Source of the DNA: a bacterium
GTDB taxonomy: Bacteria; Armatimonadota; Fimbriimonadia; Fimbriimonadales; Fimbriimonadaceae
Assembly: GCA_027485645.1 (NCBI GenBank)
Contig: JAIXQR010000002.1
Coordinates: 310,001 to 374,000, forward strand
Direction of reading: 5' to 3'
DNA length: 64,000 bases
This document shows, in pieces, positions 36,351 to 43,830 of this stretch. How positions within the stretch are numbered: position 1 is the first letter of the stretch; the number at the start of each line of letters is the position of its first letter. The translations under genes and the position numbers were made by a program. Under the pieces are notes generated by a model. It saw only the letters and a program-made list of their open reading frames with translations. It searched no databases and was not told the origin of the DNA.

Positions 36351-37082
36351 TTATTCTTTGCGAGCTGCTCTTCGGATGGCATCTCCAAGGTCACCATCTC
36401 CGAGCTCGTACTTGCTAAGGTTGTGAATATTGTCTTGGTTTACGTGGAGTTGTCCTTCATTACCGCTATTGCCGCGGTGCTGCCCTTTCGAAAATAAAGG
36501 ATTCGCGGACACTTCGGCGGAGTTTATCACCCAAAGAACAATTTCATCGCGGAATACTGCTACCCAAATAAACACATCGCAATAATGCGGCTTGAGCTGT
36601 TGATAGTTCATCAAGAATGGCTTATTGGTATCTCTTGCCAATGCTTTGATATACAAAGGCTCATCGCTGTCACTATCTACAGCCCTTGATGCCTTAACCT
36701 CAATTCGAATCCCGTCAAGCCACAGGTCATATTCGCCAGAGTAAGAATCATCCAATTTTTTGTTTGCTGCTTTGAGAGCCGGGCATTTGCCTTGCACATA
36801 GGTTTGTGCAAACTTTTCGCCAAATCCCCTTGGCGCCGAAATCTCAAATATCCACAAGTTCGGATTCTCACTAATATAGTCAGATCGGATATCAAGATAG
36901 TTTTGATATGTAAGACCCTTCATTTCGATAAGATGACAAATCAAATGCTCATACTCGTTGAATGGAAATACAGAGACATCTTCATCTATGATCTCCAGCG
37001 CACGATTCAGATCCACCGCATTTCCGGTAAATTCACTACAGATTCTATTCTTTAGTTCGGAAAGTTCCATTATCTTCTTCAA
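36351..37082 (-). CDS. Probable type II restriction endonuclease, PD-(D/E)xK fold
   Basis: 243 aa, AT-richer than its surroundings. A PD-(D/E)xK-like active site is visible: D119 in GEYDLWLDG, then E128 and K130 in IRIEVKAS. Around it are FISWVAVF/LWVINSAEV-type strands and the conserved-looking stretch GQHRGNSGNEGQLH. The gene overlaps the end of the adjacent DNA methyltransferase by 38 bp (26 bp if ATG 37070 is used), the classic R-M layout. The recognition sequence cannot be guessed, and no named isoschizomer family was recognised. Confidence 0.75.
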   Translation of the reverse strand: MKKIMELSELKNRICSEFTGNAVDLNRALEIIDEDVSVFPFNEYEHLICHLIEMKGLTYQNYLDIRSDYISENPNLWIFEISAPRGFGEKFAQTYVQGKCPALKAANKKLDDSYSGEYDLWLDGIRIEVKASRAVDSDSDEPLYIKALARDTNKPFLMNYQQLKPHYCDVFIWVAVFRDEIVLWVINSAEVSANPLFSKGQHRGNSGNEGQLHVNQDNIHNLSKYELGDGDLGDAIRRAARKE

Positions 37083-38691
37083 CCTTCAAGTATGCTTGCA
37101 ATTCACCTTCCTCAAAGGAATCTCCATAACTTTTGAGAAACTCGTGAAAAATCGGTAAAACTTCTAAGTTAGATCTCAGCACTTTGTGAGTGTTAAATAA
37201 CTTTCTGTATAGCCAGTTCACTGTTTCTGAATTCAATAATCTCGCAACAGCCGAATGCGAAACTGGAAAGCTATCGTTGAGAACAACGATGTTCGCACTA
37301 TTTAAGCAGAAGCTCTGCTCTCGATCACAGTGGAACACAAGCGAATTGGCAATGAAGCGATACAACAGCTTCTCTTGAGCTCTGTACAAACCGACTGGGG
37401 CGACTTGCTGGTACAAGCTCAAATCAGCCGGAATGAAGCAGCTAGGGGGTTCCAATCCATCGACGGTTATATCTTCTCCCCTGAAAACGGGCATGTATCC
37501 GTCTTTCGGTTGCGTTTGGCAGAATTTGCTATTGTTGCCTGTTACGATGCCAAGGCCCCACTTTGCTTGATGCCTTAATGTAATGTGTGGGAAGGAATAG
37601 ATTTGAGCGATCACGGCGTTCTCCTCTTCGGTGCAGTTGAGGTTTATGATCTTTCCAGGATTAGATGAGAACGCTTGCTGTGGACGCTCATATGTATTGC
37701 CTTCAACCACACATTTCACTGTGCTACCGGATTTGGGTGACAGCTTCTGAGAAATGAAACCCTGCGCTTTGGTAACGAGACCTTTGAATGGCTTGCCAAA
37801 GTCATGCAAACTTACAATCGTGTTTAGCAGAAGGTGCTCTCTGGTGTCCTGAAAAGTTCCAATGTTAAAAAACGATTCCGGAAGCAGGAGCCCGATAAAG
37901 CCCAAGGGCTTCGTGGCCCTGTGGCAAGCAAAATAGAATATGGATGATGAATCTGCACTCATCTTCGTATGAAATCGTTTCGCGAGAGTTTCCTTCGCGT
38001 CTTTGGTTAGCTTTTTGCCCCAAGGCGGGTTAGTTACGATAACATCGAACAACTGATGGTCACCAACCATGGGCACGTCAGCCAAGAAATCTCGATGCTC
38101 GATATGGGCGACATCCTGACCAGCCAACTCTCGAAGTCGAAGTCTAGCTATTTCAACCGCTGTTTCATCAATATCAAAACCATAAATATTTGAGGGCCTG
38201 AACCCTGCTTTGAGTGCTGCAACTAAGAAATTTCCGGTTCCACAACATGGGTCGCAGAATGTTGCCGTATCGAAATCCACAGATATTTGTTTGAAAAATG
38301 ACTGAGCAATGTGTGCAGGGGTGTAGTAAACGCCTTCTTTATTCTTATAGGATGTTGACAGGCTGTTTTCGTACTCAGCTGCTAGTGATTCGCCATCTAA
38401 TTCGGAACATCTAGTCTTGATAGTGGCAGTGATCCGGTCGCACAGTTCGACGTGATCATGGGAATTGCGATGGAGTTTATTGGCTCGCCGTGTAAGTTTT
38501 TCAGTGCCTGCGATGCTTTCTTTGAATTGGTTGAAGGACTCGCGAGTGACTTGGCCACTATAGACGGATGTAAGGTAACTCGTTTTGATCCAATTTCTGA
38601 CGGAAGCTTCGGAGACGTTAAGTTGCATAGCAACCTGCGCGATCGTCATCGAATCTGAGTCGTCAACGTTAAATAATGCGGCTTGCGACAT
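37045..38691 (-). CDS. N6-adenine DNA methyltransferase with N-terminal HTH
   Basis: 548 aa. An N-terminal helix-turn-helix (TIAQVAMQLNVSEASVRNWIKTSYL, about residues 15-40) is fused to a gamma-type MTase domain. SAM-binding motif I is FCDPCCGTGNFL (about 145-155) and catalytic motif IV is VTNPPWGKK (about 221-224). The C-terminal part (GEDITVDGLEPPSCF… NTHKVLRSNLEVLPI) resembles a TaqI-type target-recognition region. The HTH may bind its own promoter. Start at ATG 38691 (MSQAALFNVDD). AT-rich codon use suggests acquisition. The endonuclease follows, overlapping. Confidence 0.9.
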   Translation of the reverse strand: MSQAALFNVDDSDSMTIAQVAMQLNVSEASVRNWIKTSYLTSVYSGQVTRESFNQFKESIAGTEKLTRRANKLHRNSHDHVELCDRITATIKTRCSELDGESLAAEYENSLSTSYKNKEGVYYTPAHIAQSFFKQISVDFDTATFCDPCCGTGNFLVAALKAGFRPSNIYGFDIDETAVEIARLRLRELAGQDVAHIEHRDFLADVPMVGDHQLFDVIVTNPPWGKKLTKDAKETLAKRFHTKMSADSSSIFYFACHRATKPLGFIGLLLPESFFNIGTFQDTREHLLLNTIVSLHDFGKPFKGLVTKAQGFISQKLSPKSGSTVKCVVEGNTYERPQQAFSSNPGKIINLNCTEEENAVIAQIYSFPHITLRHQAKWGLGIVTGNNSKFCQTQPKDGYMPVFRGEDITVDGLEPPSCFIPADLSLYQQVAPVGLYRAQEKLLYRFIANSLVFHCDREQSFCLNSANIVVLNDSFPVSHSAVARLLNSETVNWLYRKLFNTHKVLRSNLEVLPIFHEFLKSYGDSFEEGELQAYLKVEEDNGTFRTKE

Positions 38692-38780
38692 GCTGATCCT
38701 TAAAGCTCGAGCCCGCAAAAATCAGAACACCATCACAACGAGATTCGGCTCCGACAATGGCGACGTCTGGAGTCTACTAT

Positions 38781-39570: not shown

Positions 39571-40317
39571 TCAGATGCCGTTCTTGCGCTGTTTCAGCTT
39601 GGCGTTGGTGGTGCCGTCGGTGGTCCAGATGCGGGGGAAGAACTGGCCGGTTGGGTTGTCTCGGCGCGCGCCGGTGATGTAGAGCTTGCCTTCGAAAGCG
39701 AACGCGACAAACATGCTGTAATCCCACGTCACGTTAGAATCTCGAGCTTCCCAAAGGATGCCCCCGGTCGCCTGGTTTCTAACCGTCAGGGAAGGGAAGT
39801 TGCCGGTCTGGGAGTAATCGTTGCTTCGGTTGTGCTGAACATATACGCGAAGGTTGCGGTCTCGGCGGGTGACGGTGAACGGACCCGCTTCAAAGGTTCC
39901 CGGGACCTGCTGGTCGTTGATGTAATCGAACTGGGCGGCCGTCTGCTCGAGCACGGTGGTGCCGTTTGATCGCCAAGCTCGACCAACGCTTCGAGAATAG
40001 TCCGTCGCGTCCTTGATTCCAAGAACGATCGCCTGGCCTTTCTCAAACCAAGCCGCGACCGGGTTGTAGTCCCAGAAGGCGTTGTTGTCTCGGCTGACCA
40101 TAAGGAGGGTCGTTTGCGTCTTGTCCGACCAAACCTGGAGGCCAGGGTTGTTCCCAGAGCCCGATTCATCAATTGCCGAGTCGTACGTAATCACGGCATA
40201 CGGATAAGTCGTCCCACCGTGAGAGAGGGGTCCGGTCGCCAAAACCTTAGGCACCGCAAGCGCCGCCGACGAAACGAGACAGAACAGCAAGGAAAGTAGA
40301 GGGCGCATATTTTTCAC
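39571..40317 (-). CDS. Exported protein, tandem-paralogue copy 1
   Basis: 248 aa with a signal peptide (LLSLLFCLVSSAALA). The body is beta-rich and Trp/Asn-rich: AVITYDSAIDESGSGNNPGLQVWSDKTQT, WRSNGTTVLEQTAAQF, SLTVRNQATGGILWEARDSNVTWDYSMFVAFAFEGKLYITGARRDNPTGQFFPRIWTT. The last region is nearly identical to the next gene. No known family recognised. It ends next to tRNA-Thr. Confidence 0.82.
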   Translation of the reverse strand: MKNMRPLLSLLFCLVSSAALAVPKVLATGPLSHGGTTYPYAVITYDSAIDESGSGNNPGLQVWSDKTQTTLLMVSRDNNAFWDYNPVAAWFEKGQAIVLGIKDATDYSRSVGRAWRSNGTTVLEQTAAQFDYINDQQVPGTFEAGPFTVTRRDRNLRVYVQHNRSNDYSQTGNFPSLTVRNQATGGILWEARDSNVTWDYSMFVAFAFEGKLYITGARRDNPTGQFFPRIWTTDGTTNAKLKQRKNGI

Positions 40318-40527
40318 TCCACCTGAGTGAATCGCTCAGGAATCGTACTGATGATCGGTGGATCAACCCAGATTTACACCTGATTCTCGAAAAATTTCAA
40401 TATTTTTCGAGTCACGCTAAAGTTCCGTTTCGTTATCGGAAATTCAAATGGAATTATCAGAAACTTTGGCGTGGTAACGAATAGATTAGTAAGTAGATTT
40501 GTCCTCCGATGCAGGTTCGTTCAGAGG

Positions 40528-40575
40528 AAAAGAAGCCTGCAAGGCTCAGGGATATTTCTCCGAGACCTTGCAGGC
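40528..40575 (-). terminator. Intrinsic terminator of paralogue copy 2
   Basis: GCCTGCAAGG (40535-40544) and CCTTGCAGGC (40566-40575) form a 10-bp perfect stem. On the minus strand it is followed by TTCTTTT. It lies right after the stop of the gene at 40587. The paralogue at 39571 therefore probably has a separate promoter in 40318-40527, where no other feature is seen. Confidence 0.8.
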
Positions 40576-40586
40576 GGAAGGGGTGA

Positions 40587-41324
40587 TTAGCCGTTTCGGC
40601 GCTGTCGAAGTCGGCTGCCGTTGGCACCTTCCGTCGTCCAGATGCGAGGGAAGAACTGGCCCGTGGCGTTGTCGCGCCGCGCACCGGTCATGTACAGCTT
40701 GCCTTCGAAAGCAAAGGCGACTAAAACGCTGTAATCCCAAGTCGCGTTATCGTCTCGTGCCTCAAACAGCACGGCGCCGGTGACTTCTTCCCGCACGGTT
40801 AGGCTGGGGTACTGACCCATTTGCGCATAGTCGTCGTTCACGTTGTGCTCGACGTAAGCCGAAAATCGCTTTCCGCGCTTTTCGACCCGAAAGAGTCCGG
40901 CCTGCAGGACACCGGGAGTTTGCGATTCATTGAGGTAGCTGTACTGGGCGGGCGTTTGCTTTAGGAAAGCTCCTCGGTTAGATCGCCAAACTCGGCCTTC
41001 GCTGACCGATCCGTCAGCGGAGTCTCGGAATCCAAGAACCACGACTTGACCATCTTCAATGAAAGCCGCTTCGGGGAAGTAGTTCCATTGAGAGTTGTCG
41101 TCGTTGCTAGAAATCAGCCGCTTCGTCAGAGACTTGTCGGCCCAAACTTCGATGCCGGGGTTTGTTCCAACTCCGGATTCATCAAGCTCATAGTCATAAG
41201 TGACAACGGCACGCTCGAACGTCTTGCCGCGGAACTCGAGCTCACCCTTTGCGATGATCTCGGGTGCCGCCATGGCCGCTGACGAAACGACGCTTAACAA
41301 CATCAAAAGAACTGGTCTCTTCAT
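40587..41324 (-). CDS. Exported protein, tandem-paralogue copy 2
   Basis: 245 aa with a signal peptide (LLMLLSVVSSAAMA), collinear with the 39571 gene over its whole length. Shared features are the opening AVVTYDYELDESGVGTNPGIEVWADKSLT, WRSNRGAFLKQTPAQY, SLTVREEVTGAVLFEARDDNATWDYSVLVAFAFEGKLYMTGARRDNATGQFFPRIWTT and a basic tail. The tail regions match far better than the N-terminal halves. Likely a tandem duplication that has diverged in its front part. Function unknown. Confidence 0.82.
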   Translation of the reverse strand: MKRPVLLMLLSVVSSAAMAAPEIIAKGELEFRGKTFERAVVTYDYELDESGVGTNPGIEVWADKSLTKRLISSNDDNSQWNYFPEAAFIEDGQVVVLGFRDSADGSVSEGRVWRSNRGAFLKQTPAQYSYLNESQTPGVLQAGLFRVEKRGKRFSAYVEHNVNDDYAQMGQYPSLTVREEVTGAVLFEARDDNATWDYSVLVAFAFEGKLYMTGARRDNATGQFFPRIWTTEGANGSRLRQRRNG

Positions 41325-41486: not shown

Positions 41487-42560
41487 TCACAATGCCCCGA
41501 GCGCAAAGGCGTCAAGCTGGGTTTCGGAGAACCGGTAGCGGGGAATATCCCCCGGCCCAAAGTTCAGCTCGACCAGCGGACGAATCAACTGCTCCGTCAC
41601 CACCGCATCGGCCAACTCCTTCCGAAGCGATGCCATCTGCAACAGCATCACTTGCAAGTGCACCTTGCCCAGGGCCAGCGAGCCGACGCGGCGACCTTCG
41701 TCGGTCGTGAGCGTTTGACCAAGAATGCAGCGAGCAATCTCGCGATTGTGAAAATCGATCGCATCGATGAAGCCGCTCGAAGCGGTCGTATCGCCGCCAA
41801 TCGCCGACACCTCAAACTCCTTCGGAAACACCATCGCCCCCGAGTTCGCGAGTTGCGATAGGCTTCGGAACAGGGAATCCGTTTCGTCTGCCGAAACCGT
41901 CCGGTCAAATCGCCCCAACATCGTCGGCGATGCAAACCGCTCCAGGTGCACTCGCCAACCTTCAATCAGACCGCGTTTCGCCTGCCAGTGCGTCCGGGCG
42001 GCTTCGAGGTCAGACCGTCCTTTCGGCATAGAAGGCGAAGTGCGGTAGCGATAGATCACGAACTTCTCCCTCGGCAAATCCTGCTCGGGCTCACCCGGAA
42101 ACTGAAGGTGCAGTCCGTCTAATCGACCGAAAGAATCCATGTTCAGACCGAATAGGCTGGCATTCTTCGGCCGAACCGCGTCGAGCCAAATCCCTTCCGC
42201 ATCCGTCGAGAACACCAACTCTTGCACGCTCCAGCCTTTGGCGAAGGCATCCATCGCCGCGTACAGAACCTGCTCCACGCTGCCCTCCATCCGCTCAAAC
42301 GCCCGCTGCACGAACTCAAGAATCTGCGCCGCCCGGGCCGAACTGTTCGCTGGAACCAGTTCAGCCGGCGCGGCCAGCACGCCCAGCTTCTTAACCTGAA
42401 GCGCGGTTTGCACCATGGAGTCCAACTCCATCTGGTCGTAAACAAGCGTGCTTGGTAAGCCCGGCATTTTAGCGATCCTTCGGTCGCTCAGGGTGAGTTG
42501 CGCCGCTACTTCCGCAGCGGTTGACGATTTCGAAATGAGATTTTTGAGCCAGTTAAGCAT
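41487..42560 (-). CDS. Phage portal protein, DUF935 (Mu gp29-like)
   Basis: 357 aa. Matches the Mu gp29/DUF935 portal family: FVQRAFERMEGSVEQVLYAAMDAFAKGWSVQELVF, LQFPGEPEQDLPREKFVIYRYRTSPSMPKGRSDLEAARTHWQAKRGLIEGW, PTMLGRFDR and the C-terminal LRKELADAVVTEQLIRPLVELNFG. In phage it forms the dodecameric DNA-entry ring. It starts at MLNWLKNL (42560), overlapping the terminase stop by 8 bp. Reading frame is open throughout and base composition is like the host. No capsid, protease or tail genes follow. Confidence 0.85.
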   Translation of the reverse strand: MLNWLKNLISKSSTAAEVAAQLTLSDRRIAKMPGLPSTLVYDQMELDSMVQTALQVKKLGVLAAPAELVPANSSARAAQILEFVQRAFERMEGSVEQVLYAAMDAFAKGWSVQELVFSTDAEGIWLDAVRPKNASLFGLNMDSFGRLDGLHLQFPGEPEQDLPREKFVIYRYRTSPSMPKGRSDLEAARTHWQAKRGLIEGWRVHLERFASPTMLGRFDRTVSADETDSLFRSLSQLANSGAMVFPKEFEVSAIGGDTTASSGFIDAIDFHNREIARCILGQTLTTDEGRRVGSLALGKVHLQVMLLQMASLRKELADAVVTEQLIRPLVELNFGPGDIPRYRFSETQLDAFALGAL

Positions 42561-43830
42561 AGGAAAATTGGATCTTCGGGGCAAGGCGAATCGAGCCGCT
42601 CAAGCGGGTAGGGAGGTGACGCGCGGCCAGCATTACGGCGGTCACGAGGTCGTCGTGCTCCGACCCTTTCGCGCCATAGCGGATGTTGCCCGCCGCCGTT
42701 TCGGAGGAGACGTAGCTCGCCAGCTCACGTTCAAGAACCGGATTCGGCTGCATCCGCAGCAGCTTGTTGCCCAGTAGCCGCGCCAAGGCGCAAACCATCT
42801 CCTCCTTTCCTCCCGAGGTGAACGTGATGTCGGTGATCGAGAATCGAGGCAGCTGACTCCGCAAAAGCTCGGCCGCAATAACCCCCATCCCCGTGCTGTC
42901 TTGAAAGATGCGCGCACCGGGAAACCGCCGAATGACTTCGACCACTTTCGCGCAAATCTCCTGAAAATGCGGACCGTGAAAGCGCTCAAGGCCGACCAGC
43001 CAACATTCGTCCCGTGTGCCCGAAACAACCGCGACCGCCGTAAAGTCCTTCGTCTTTGCCCAGTCCACGCCAATCGTAAACGGGCCAGCAAACGAAGTTG
43101 GCCACTCGTAGCACCGCGCGTCGTCGATACTCTCCTGCGTAAAAACCGCCCCCGCCGCTTCGCGAAAGACGGCCTCGTACTCGACCTCGAAGCTGCGCGG
43201 AGAAGACTCGTTCTTCTTCGCCGCCAAAAAGTGACGAGAAACCCTTGGGTTCTCCGAACTCGGCGAGCGCCGGGACCAAATCCCGTTTTCACCGCGCTCT
43301 CCGCGATCAAAAAGCCGCCAGAACCAGTTAAAGCCGTTCGGCGTGCTGATGCAGGTCAGATGCCCATCGGTCATCGAGAGCATCGGCGTCAAAACTTCGG
43401 TCACCAGAGCCTCTGGCACAAAGGCCGCCTCATCCACGATCACATGGTCCGCCTCGTCACCGCGCAAACTGTCCGGCGCATGGCCAGATCGCGCCGTCAC
43501 CACGTGCCCGTCGAACTCCAAAACCGGAAACGGCGTGTTCTTGGGACGGAACTTCGTGATGTCCTTCGTGACTTTTCGTTGGTAGTCATCCAGCAACCGG
43601 CAAACCCGCCGAAACAGAATCTTCGCCTGCTCAAGCGTCGGGGCGACCATGAGTTGCCGCGAGGGCGGAGCGCGCAAGATTCGGTGCAGAACGTCCACCG
43701 CGCAAGCCTCCGTTTTGCCCCACCTCCGCCCGCAGGCCAACGCCCGGGTCTTCGCTTCCGCCAAGAGAAATTCCCGTTGACCCGGATGCGGTTGCCAGAT
43801 CGGCGCGATCCGCTGCAAAAATTCTTCCAT
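42553..43830 (-). CDS. Phage terminase large subunit (packaging ATPase/nuclease)
   Basis: 425 aa. The ATPase part has a Walker-A-like ACGRRWGKTEA and Walker B HVIVDEAAFV. Between them lies LMVAPTLEQAKILFRRVCRLL. The RNase-H-like nuclease starts at FTIGVDWAKTKDFTAVAVVSG and continues with ARIFQDSTGMGVIAAELLRSQ and HDDLVTAVMLAARHL, giving the expected acidic residues. Start ATG 43830 (MEEFLQRIAP). The 55 extra residues of the ORF track overlap the leader of the divergent gene. Paired with the portal gene; no small terminase is visible. Confidence 0.9.
   Translation of the reverse strand: MEEFLQRIAPIWQPHPGQREFLLAEAKTRALACGRRWGKTEACAVDVLHRILRAPPSRQLMVAPTLEQAKILFRRVCRLLDDYQRKVTKDITKFRPKNTPFPVLEFDGHVVTARSGHAPDSLRGDEADHVIVDEAAFVPEALVTEVLTPMLSMTDGHLTCISTPNGFNWFWRLFDRGERGENGIWSRRSPSSENPRVSRHFLAAKKNESSPRSFEVEYEAVFREAAGAVFTQESIDDARCYEWPTSFAGPFTIGVDWAKTKDFTAVAVVSGTRDECWLVGLERFHGPHFQEICAKVVEVIRRFPGARIFQDSTGMGVIAAELLRSQLPRFSITDITFTSGGKEEMVCALARLLGNKLLRMQPNPVLERELASYVSSETAAGNIRYGAKGSEHDDLVTAVMLAARHLPTRLSGSIRLAPKIQFSYA

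Follow-up and report, generated by a model that had tools for sequence, protein, structure and literature searches.

The terminase-portal pair and its surroundings

The window, i.e., the whole stretch of 64 kb analysed in the present work, spans positions C4:310,001-374,000 of G000, a genome of 3.19 Mb in 7 contigs belonging to the order Fimbriimonadales. It harbors, on the minus strand, the terL gene (42553-43830), which has an ATG start and codes for a terminase large subunit of 425 residues with an ATPase and an RNaseH-like nuclease, and a gene (41487-42560) coding for a portal protein of the Mu gp29/DUF935 type, 357 residues long. The two reading frames are unbroken and overlap by 8 bp. 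The TerL sequence matched the Pfam families Terminase_6N (2e-12) and Terminase_6C (8e-11) and phrog_2 (5.6e-47), while that of the portal matched Portal_Mu (2.7e-61) and phrog_113 (4.9e-59), as well as solved phage portals and the P23-45 portal profile. The Walker A (GRRWGKT, residue 34) and Walker B (VIVDEAA, residue 130) motifs of TerL and the acidic residues of the nuclease (D256 in DWAKT, and HDD at 392) were all recognised, and the catalytic positions show little or no variation in 19 relatives. The original prediction of an intact terminase overlapping a Mu gp29-like portal is therefore correct.

The neighbors of the pair (two secreted paralogues, a tRNA-Thr, and an ankyrin-repeat protein) are host genes. 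Probing the ten nearest other genes with PHROGs did not retrieve any structural phage gene, in agreement with the prediction of non-viral neighbors on both sides, and no integrase or other mobility gene was found beside the pair in G000. When the whole 64-kb window was searched with profiles of packaging and head genes, terL and the portal gene were the sole matches. A phage gene set in one block (integrase or transposase, replication, tail, and regulatory genes) is absent both from the window and from the surroundings of the relatives' loci.

The two secreted paralogues (39571-41324), which lie directly downstream of the portal gene and whose family is unassigned, are common, among the compared loci, only to G000 and its sister genome G014; they evolve faster than the terL-portal pair (dN/dS 0.066-0.092). 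Moreover, the stretch 36351-38718, which lies near the tRNA-Thr gene (39442), codes for an N6-adenine methylase with a TaqI-like specificity domain and for a small possible restriction enzyme. Its GC content is 46% vs. about 57% in the surrounding DNA, and it has the appearance of a restriction-modification unit gained by horizontal transfer.

The head operon beyond the window

The HK97-type capsid (PF05065) is absent from G000 and from nearly all carriers, so that the suggestion of an intact motor kept alone seemed at first to be supported. The search was then extended to the gpT-type capsid family, which retrieved a match on the same contig (C4:378.6-379.5 kb); since capsid genes are present only 24 kb away, this suggestion has to be abandoned. 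The match is part of a five-gene head operon (C4:377,832-380,742, minus strand), located 3.8-6.7 kb past the right end of the window and 24 kb from terL. Hence, the statement that the pair stands without any other phage gene holds inside the 64-kb window, but fails 3.8 kb beyond its right end.

All five genes are on the minus strand and code for a protease/scaffold (C4:379,966-380,742), a cement protein (C4:379,520-379,960; phrog_1731, 1.9e-20), a major capsid protein of the Mu gpT type (C4:378,579-379,514; PF10124, 1.2e-55; phrog_371, 1.8e-61), and two putative connectors, i.e., an adaptor (C4:378,128-378,514) and a stopper (C4:377,832-378,176), both named by position and size. The protease of G000 itself gave no match with curated profiles; its relatives match Mu-like_Pro weakly, the family profile matches the protease of Mushuvirus, and the His, Ser, and Glu positions of catalytic type do not vary. 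A sequence search of the adaptor, stopper, and protease profiles against solved structures did not give any significant match. The predicted structure of the putative adaptor is a fair model (pLDDT 79), and the fold search with the putative connectors gave no significant match, so that neither sequence nor fold supports the identity of these two proteins. The capsid structure predicted from the single sequence reached a pLDDT of 30.

One capsid of the same system (L247:6583-7515) shares with Mu gpT and with the JBD30 capsid three matching blocks whose order is changed, and is colinear with the Mushuvirus capsid and with Pfam Phage_capsid_4. Because of this colinearity, a segment permutation of the capsid was dropped as a novelty.

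Distribution, inheritance, and architecture of the system

The presence of the two genes was checked in 61 related genomes, as the original prediction had proposed. TerL homologues were retrieved from 40 of them and portal homologues from 48 (a count that includes some prophage-type matches), mostly in single copy and mostly intact, with broken terL frames in a few carriers (G009, G043, and G050); the PF10124 capsid occurs in G000 and in 39 of the 61 genomes in all. TerL, portal, and capsid co-occur across Fimbriimonadales, with Fisher p values from 1.2e-9 to 7.8e-12 and four discordant genomes in the 52 that are at least 90% complete. Since these 52 genomes are related by descent, a comparison of independent pairs on the RpoB tree was added to the Fisher test. 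On this tree the terL and capsid traits change nine times each; they do so in the same direction in about six out of eight independent pairs and almost never in opposite directions (median sign-test p 0.03). According to these data, TerL, portal, protease, cement, capsid, and the two putative connectors are kept together, as far as their sequences tell, as a single-copy set. These genes are missing from roughly half of the same family and from the greater part of the phylum, which means that the head and packaging system is dispensable; where members of the genus lack it, the pattern is one of joint loss. Within the family, carriers have smaller genomes (median 3.2 vs. 4.3 Mb).

Each of the quick trees obtained for TerL, portal, and capsid groups f1, f2, and f5 into family clades, in agreement with RpoB. 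Mantel tests against RpoB distances gave r values of 0.71, 0.84, and 0.84 for TerL, portal, and capsid, respectively (p = 1e-4), and of 0.42-0.53 within f1 alone (p = 1e-4). The capsid diverges at about half the rate of RpoB (slope 0.51), and the identity to most relatives within the order is 34-55% for TerL, 43-57% for the portal, and 50-68% for the capsid. The terL, portal, and head genes are under strong purifying selection: the dN/dS values between G000 and its sister G014, whose computation had also been proposed, are 0.043 for terL, 0.025 for the portal, 0.040 for the protease, and 0.029 for both cement and capsid, with a looser value (0.183) for the putative stopper. In the same comparison, host neighbors range from 0.025 to 0.092, and the nearby RseP has 0.037.

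The association extends to the whole phylum. Among 291 Armatimonadota genomes, 119 matched the capsid profile, 134 the TerL profile, and 104 both (p = 2e-34). In the deep-branching families f31-f35 the genes form a compact operon of about 7-8 kb (loci L349-L359, the first of which sits in a single-contig genome), which embeds a small-terminase-like gene, terL, portal, protease, cement, capsid, a variable gene, putative adaptor, and putative stopper, and ends with a small membrane coiled-coil protein followed by host genes; the gene order varies somewhat between families. Some operons also include lysis genes, i.e., a holin-like protein, an amidase (L359:14042-14623), or an endolysin (L136:15373-15768; phrog_2649, 1.7e-26). 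The variable protein encoded between capsid and adaptor has an N-terminal start that is similar across several of the deep lineages and a remainder that differs; the protein found at this place in L137 carries a carbohydrate-binding module. This protein could be a head fibre. No variable gene is present at that position in G000.

The operon of Fimbriimonadales is split, and the search for a small terminase was negative in 60 of the 61 genomes. In family f2 even terL and the portal gene do not adjoin each other (in G041, a single-contig genome, about 1 Mb lies between them), and both are kept. We infer that the compact operon came first and was split later in this order. Dispersed over 27 kb to more than 1 Mb, the Fimbriimonadales genes are likely not packageable in full, and the operon of the deep lineages could fit in one head.

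Other loci with related genes were also observed. Two sister genomes harbor a second intact terminase copy without an adjoining portal (L044, G018:C1:1389759-1390994; L047, G015:C29:84-1376), each in addition to a regular terL-portal pair. In families f13 and f11, three loci (L362, L364, and L368) combine related capsid and cement genes with an S49-like protease and a terminase-like gene of a different sort. They too adjoin host genes, those of chemotaxis in the case of L362, are devoid of recognised tail genes, and maybe represent an alternative form of the head module. Outside the phylum, in Sumerlaeota (L140-L143), portal, protease-like, and cement-like genes lie in a row beside ordinary host genes, with a capsid-like gene in L142, so that a similar head module may exist there. 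Lastly, L147, a 4-kb IMG/VR contig labelled viral, harbors a small-terminase-like gene, a terminase, a gene for an MscL-like mechanosensitive channel, and a portal, and is probably a fragment of a bacterial head-system locus rather than a virus.

As for the tail, whose genes were also to be looked for elsewhere in the genome, the outcome is different from that of the capsid found on the same contig: the sheath (PF04984) and tape-measure (PF10145) profiles were negative in G000 and in nearly all the Fimbriimonadales carriers, the tape measure is absent in 17 of 22 deeper carriers, and no tail gene was recognised beside the head operon in about 40 loci, compact ones included. This absence rests on two tail families and on neighborhood inspection, which a divergent or unlinked module could escape. 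Because the head genes come without a recognised tail gene, they may form a particle that has no tail; this is the simplest reading of the head system, not a proof.

Tape-measure matches in five f35 genomes were considered as the missing tail and rejected, being parts of separate phage-like elements with, apparently, their own head genes. These genomes (L370, L372, L373, L374, and L375) share a contractile-tail block (capsid-like, sheath, tube, tape measure, and baseplate genes) conserved over several genera, which is possibly another domesticated element or a group of related prophages.

Interpretation and comparison with known systems

Taken together, these data suggest that the terL-portal pair represents one of the loci of a vertically inherited, dispersed system of Armatimonadota, derived from a phage head and most likely resembling a gene-transfer agent (GTA); we give this reading a probability of roughly 0.7. 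The original prediction had listed a domesticated packaging system, or part of a split GTA, among the possibilities, and the conserved single copies, the purifying selection, the congruence with RpoB, and the joint presence and absence with the head operon all speak for it. Under the viriform definition of a GTA (PMC9662315), three features were recognised on the sequences: TerL, portal, protease, cement, and capsid are homologous to tailed-phage (caudoviricete) proteins; the genes are fully endogenised, in Fimbriimonadales at more than one locus (two, 24 kb apart, in G000); and the family clades and Mantel correlations indicate vertical inheritance and co-diversification with the host. The system is thus a GTA candidate, seemingly head-only and new for the phylum; no GTA from Armatimonadota was retrieved from the literature searched. 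These bacteria appear to have tamed a virus-head system long ago and to have passed it from parent to offspring.

The explanations that see a mobile element in the pair fare worst. For a decaying prophage remnant one might cite the fact that only head and packaging genes remain, that some relatives lack them, and that a few copies are broken; nevertheless, dN/dS values of 0.025-0.043 are far from neutral, close relatives are not all devoid of the genes, intact single copies occur across families and classes, and the genes follow the host tree and are jointly present or absent with partners 24 kb to 1 Mb away, which makes the ordinary dying prophage very improbable. Phage satellites that bear a terminase or form capsids exist, and an incomplete set of phage genes would suit an island of this kind depending on a helper phage, as the original prediction had also envisaged. 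Such an origin is unlikely, though, given vertical inheritance, a capsid that belongs to the same lineage-wide system, genes spread over separate loci, and the lack of an integrase, other mobility gene, or attachment-site evidence beside the pair in G000; moreover, a related tail-bearing helper was not recognised in most carrier genomes.

The two remaining alternatives accept domestication and differ in what the particle would be. It might belong to a complete GTA whose tail module lies at a further unlinked locus and codes for proteins too divergent for the profiles used: all the experimentally proven GTAs we know of have tails, and two putative connector genes, whose counterparts in phages join head to tail, are still part of the head operon. 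In addition, GTA genes are often distributed over several loci, and one- or two-gene loci lying far apart hamper the finding of GTAs (reviewed in PMC11841831). The sheath and tape-measure searches, negative in G000 and in nearly all carriers, the lack of recognised tail genes beside even the compact operons, and the f35 tail loci, which look like separate elements with head genes of their own, make this unlikely. We are similarly doubtful about a domesticated capsid with another job, such as the intracellular storage or protection of DNA, or a particle for signalling or killing. The strong conservation implies some job without telling which one, and no receptor-binding or tail apparatus was recognised in G000; on the other hand, the ATPase and nuclease motifs of TerL and the portal are fully kept, and DNA pumping with cutting therefore seems to be what is selected, while the presence of lysis genes in some lineages' operons suggests that particles are released.

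Coming back to the GTA-like reading, the set of packaging and head genes is complete in outline, and the following steps can be proposed. The capsid protein, protease, and cement would build a prohead on the portal, and TerL would fill it with host DNA, perhaps with little sequence choice, since no small terminase is recognised in Fimbriimonadales; this absence fits random packaging of host DNA, although it is only suggestive. The putative connectors would then plug the portal and seal the head, and cell lysis, through the holin, endolysin, or amidase encoded in the operon of some lineages, would free the particles. Recipients would take up the DNA, maybe via the natural-transformation channel (ComEC), and in lineages having the variable gene its product, the possible head fibre, may aid uptake. 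ComEC is present in G000; it is near-universal and, hence, not specific to carriers. An ancient, phylum-wide transfer system based on tail-less DNA-packing heads, lysis, and uptake by natural transformation would be a GTA architecture not known before; we advance it tentatively, at rather less than even odds.

GTAs with an established genetic basis represent three independent domestications, two in alphaproteobacteria and one in spirochaetes (PMC9662315). If our reading is true, the vertically inherited head-and-packaging set of Armatimonadota, a phylum that has received little study, would add one more domestication of this type, apparently a very old one, and would show how prophage-finding methods overlook systems whose genes are scattered one or two at a time. 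A truly tail-less particle would, in turn, raise the question of how packaged DNA reaches recipients and whether the transformation machinery can replace injection, a question open to direct test in cultured Armatimonadota thanks to the joint pattern of presence and absence.

The relationship with known phages is distant. The nearest phage proteins share about 31% identity for TerL (Thermus, Meiothermus, and Halorubrum phages), and the best values, Mushuvirus and other Mu-like heads included, are 34% for the capsid and 27% for the portal; probing IMG/VR with the portal profile did not retrieve any close viral relative. The Thermus phages P23-45, P74-26, and TSP4 are among the closest for TerL (27-31% identity), a likeness of the terminase; they are tailed siphophages, and no capsid relationship with them was found. 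Mu-like prophages of the same order (L093, L094, and L090) have a related portal and a gpI-like protease, but differ in their phrog_38 terminase, a portal of 435-454 residues, a full phage neighborhood, and a sporadic distribution. The most similar arrangement is that of Mushuvirus mushu (Faecalibacterium phage FP_Mushu), which has the same order of portal, protease, cement, capsid, and two connectors, with homology to the head system for the portal (3.5e-40), protease (1e-6), cement (9.5e-27), and capsid (9e-75). In this phage, however, the connectors are followed by about a dozen genes for a contractile tail (sheath, tube, tape measure, and baseplate), whereas the Armatimonadota operon stops there; it also harbors a transposase and a Mu-type head morphogenesis protein, and its TerL is not matched by the Armatimonadota TerL profile.

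The GTAs (Rhodogtaviriformidae, Bartogtaviriformidae, and Brachygtaviriformidae) belong to other phyla, whereas the Armatimonadota system combines a Mu gpT-type capsid with a Mu-type portal and no recognised tail module. The likeness to them, drawn for a system known from its genes alone, is one of features rather than of sequence comparison: in both cases phage-derived head and packaging genes are fixed in chromosomes at several loci, are inherited vertically under purifying selection, and, where they are dispersed, are probably not packaged as one piece.
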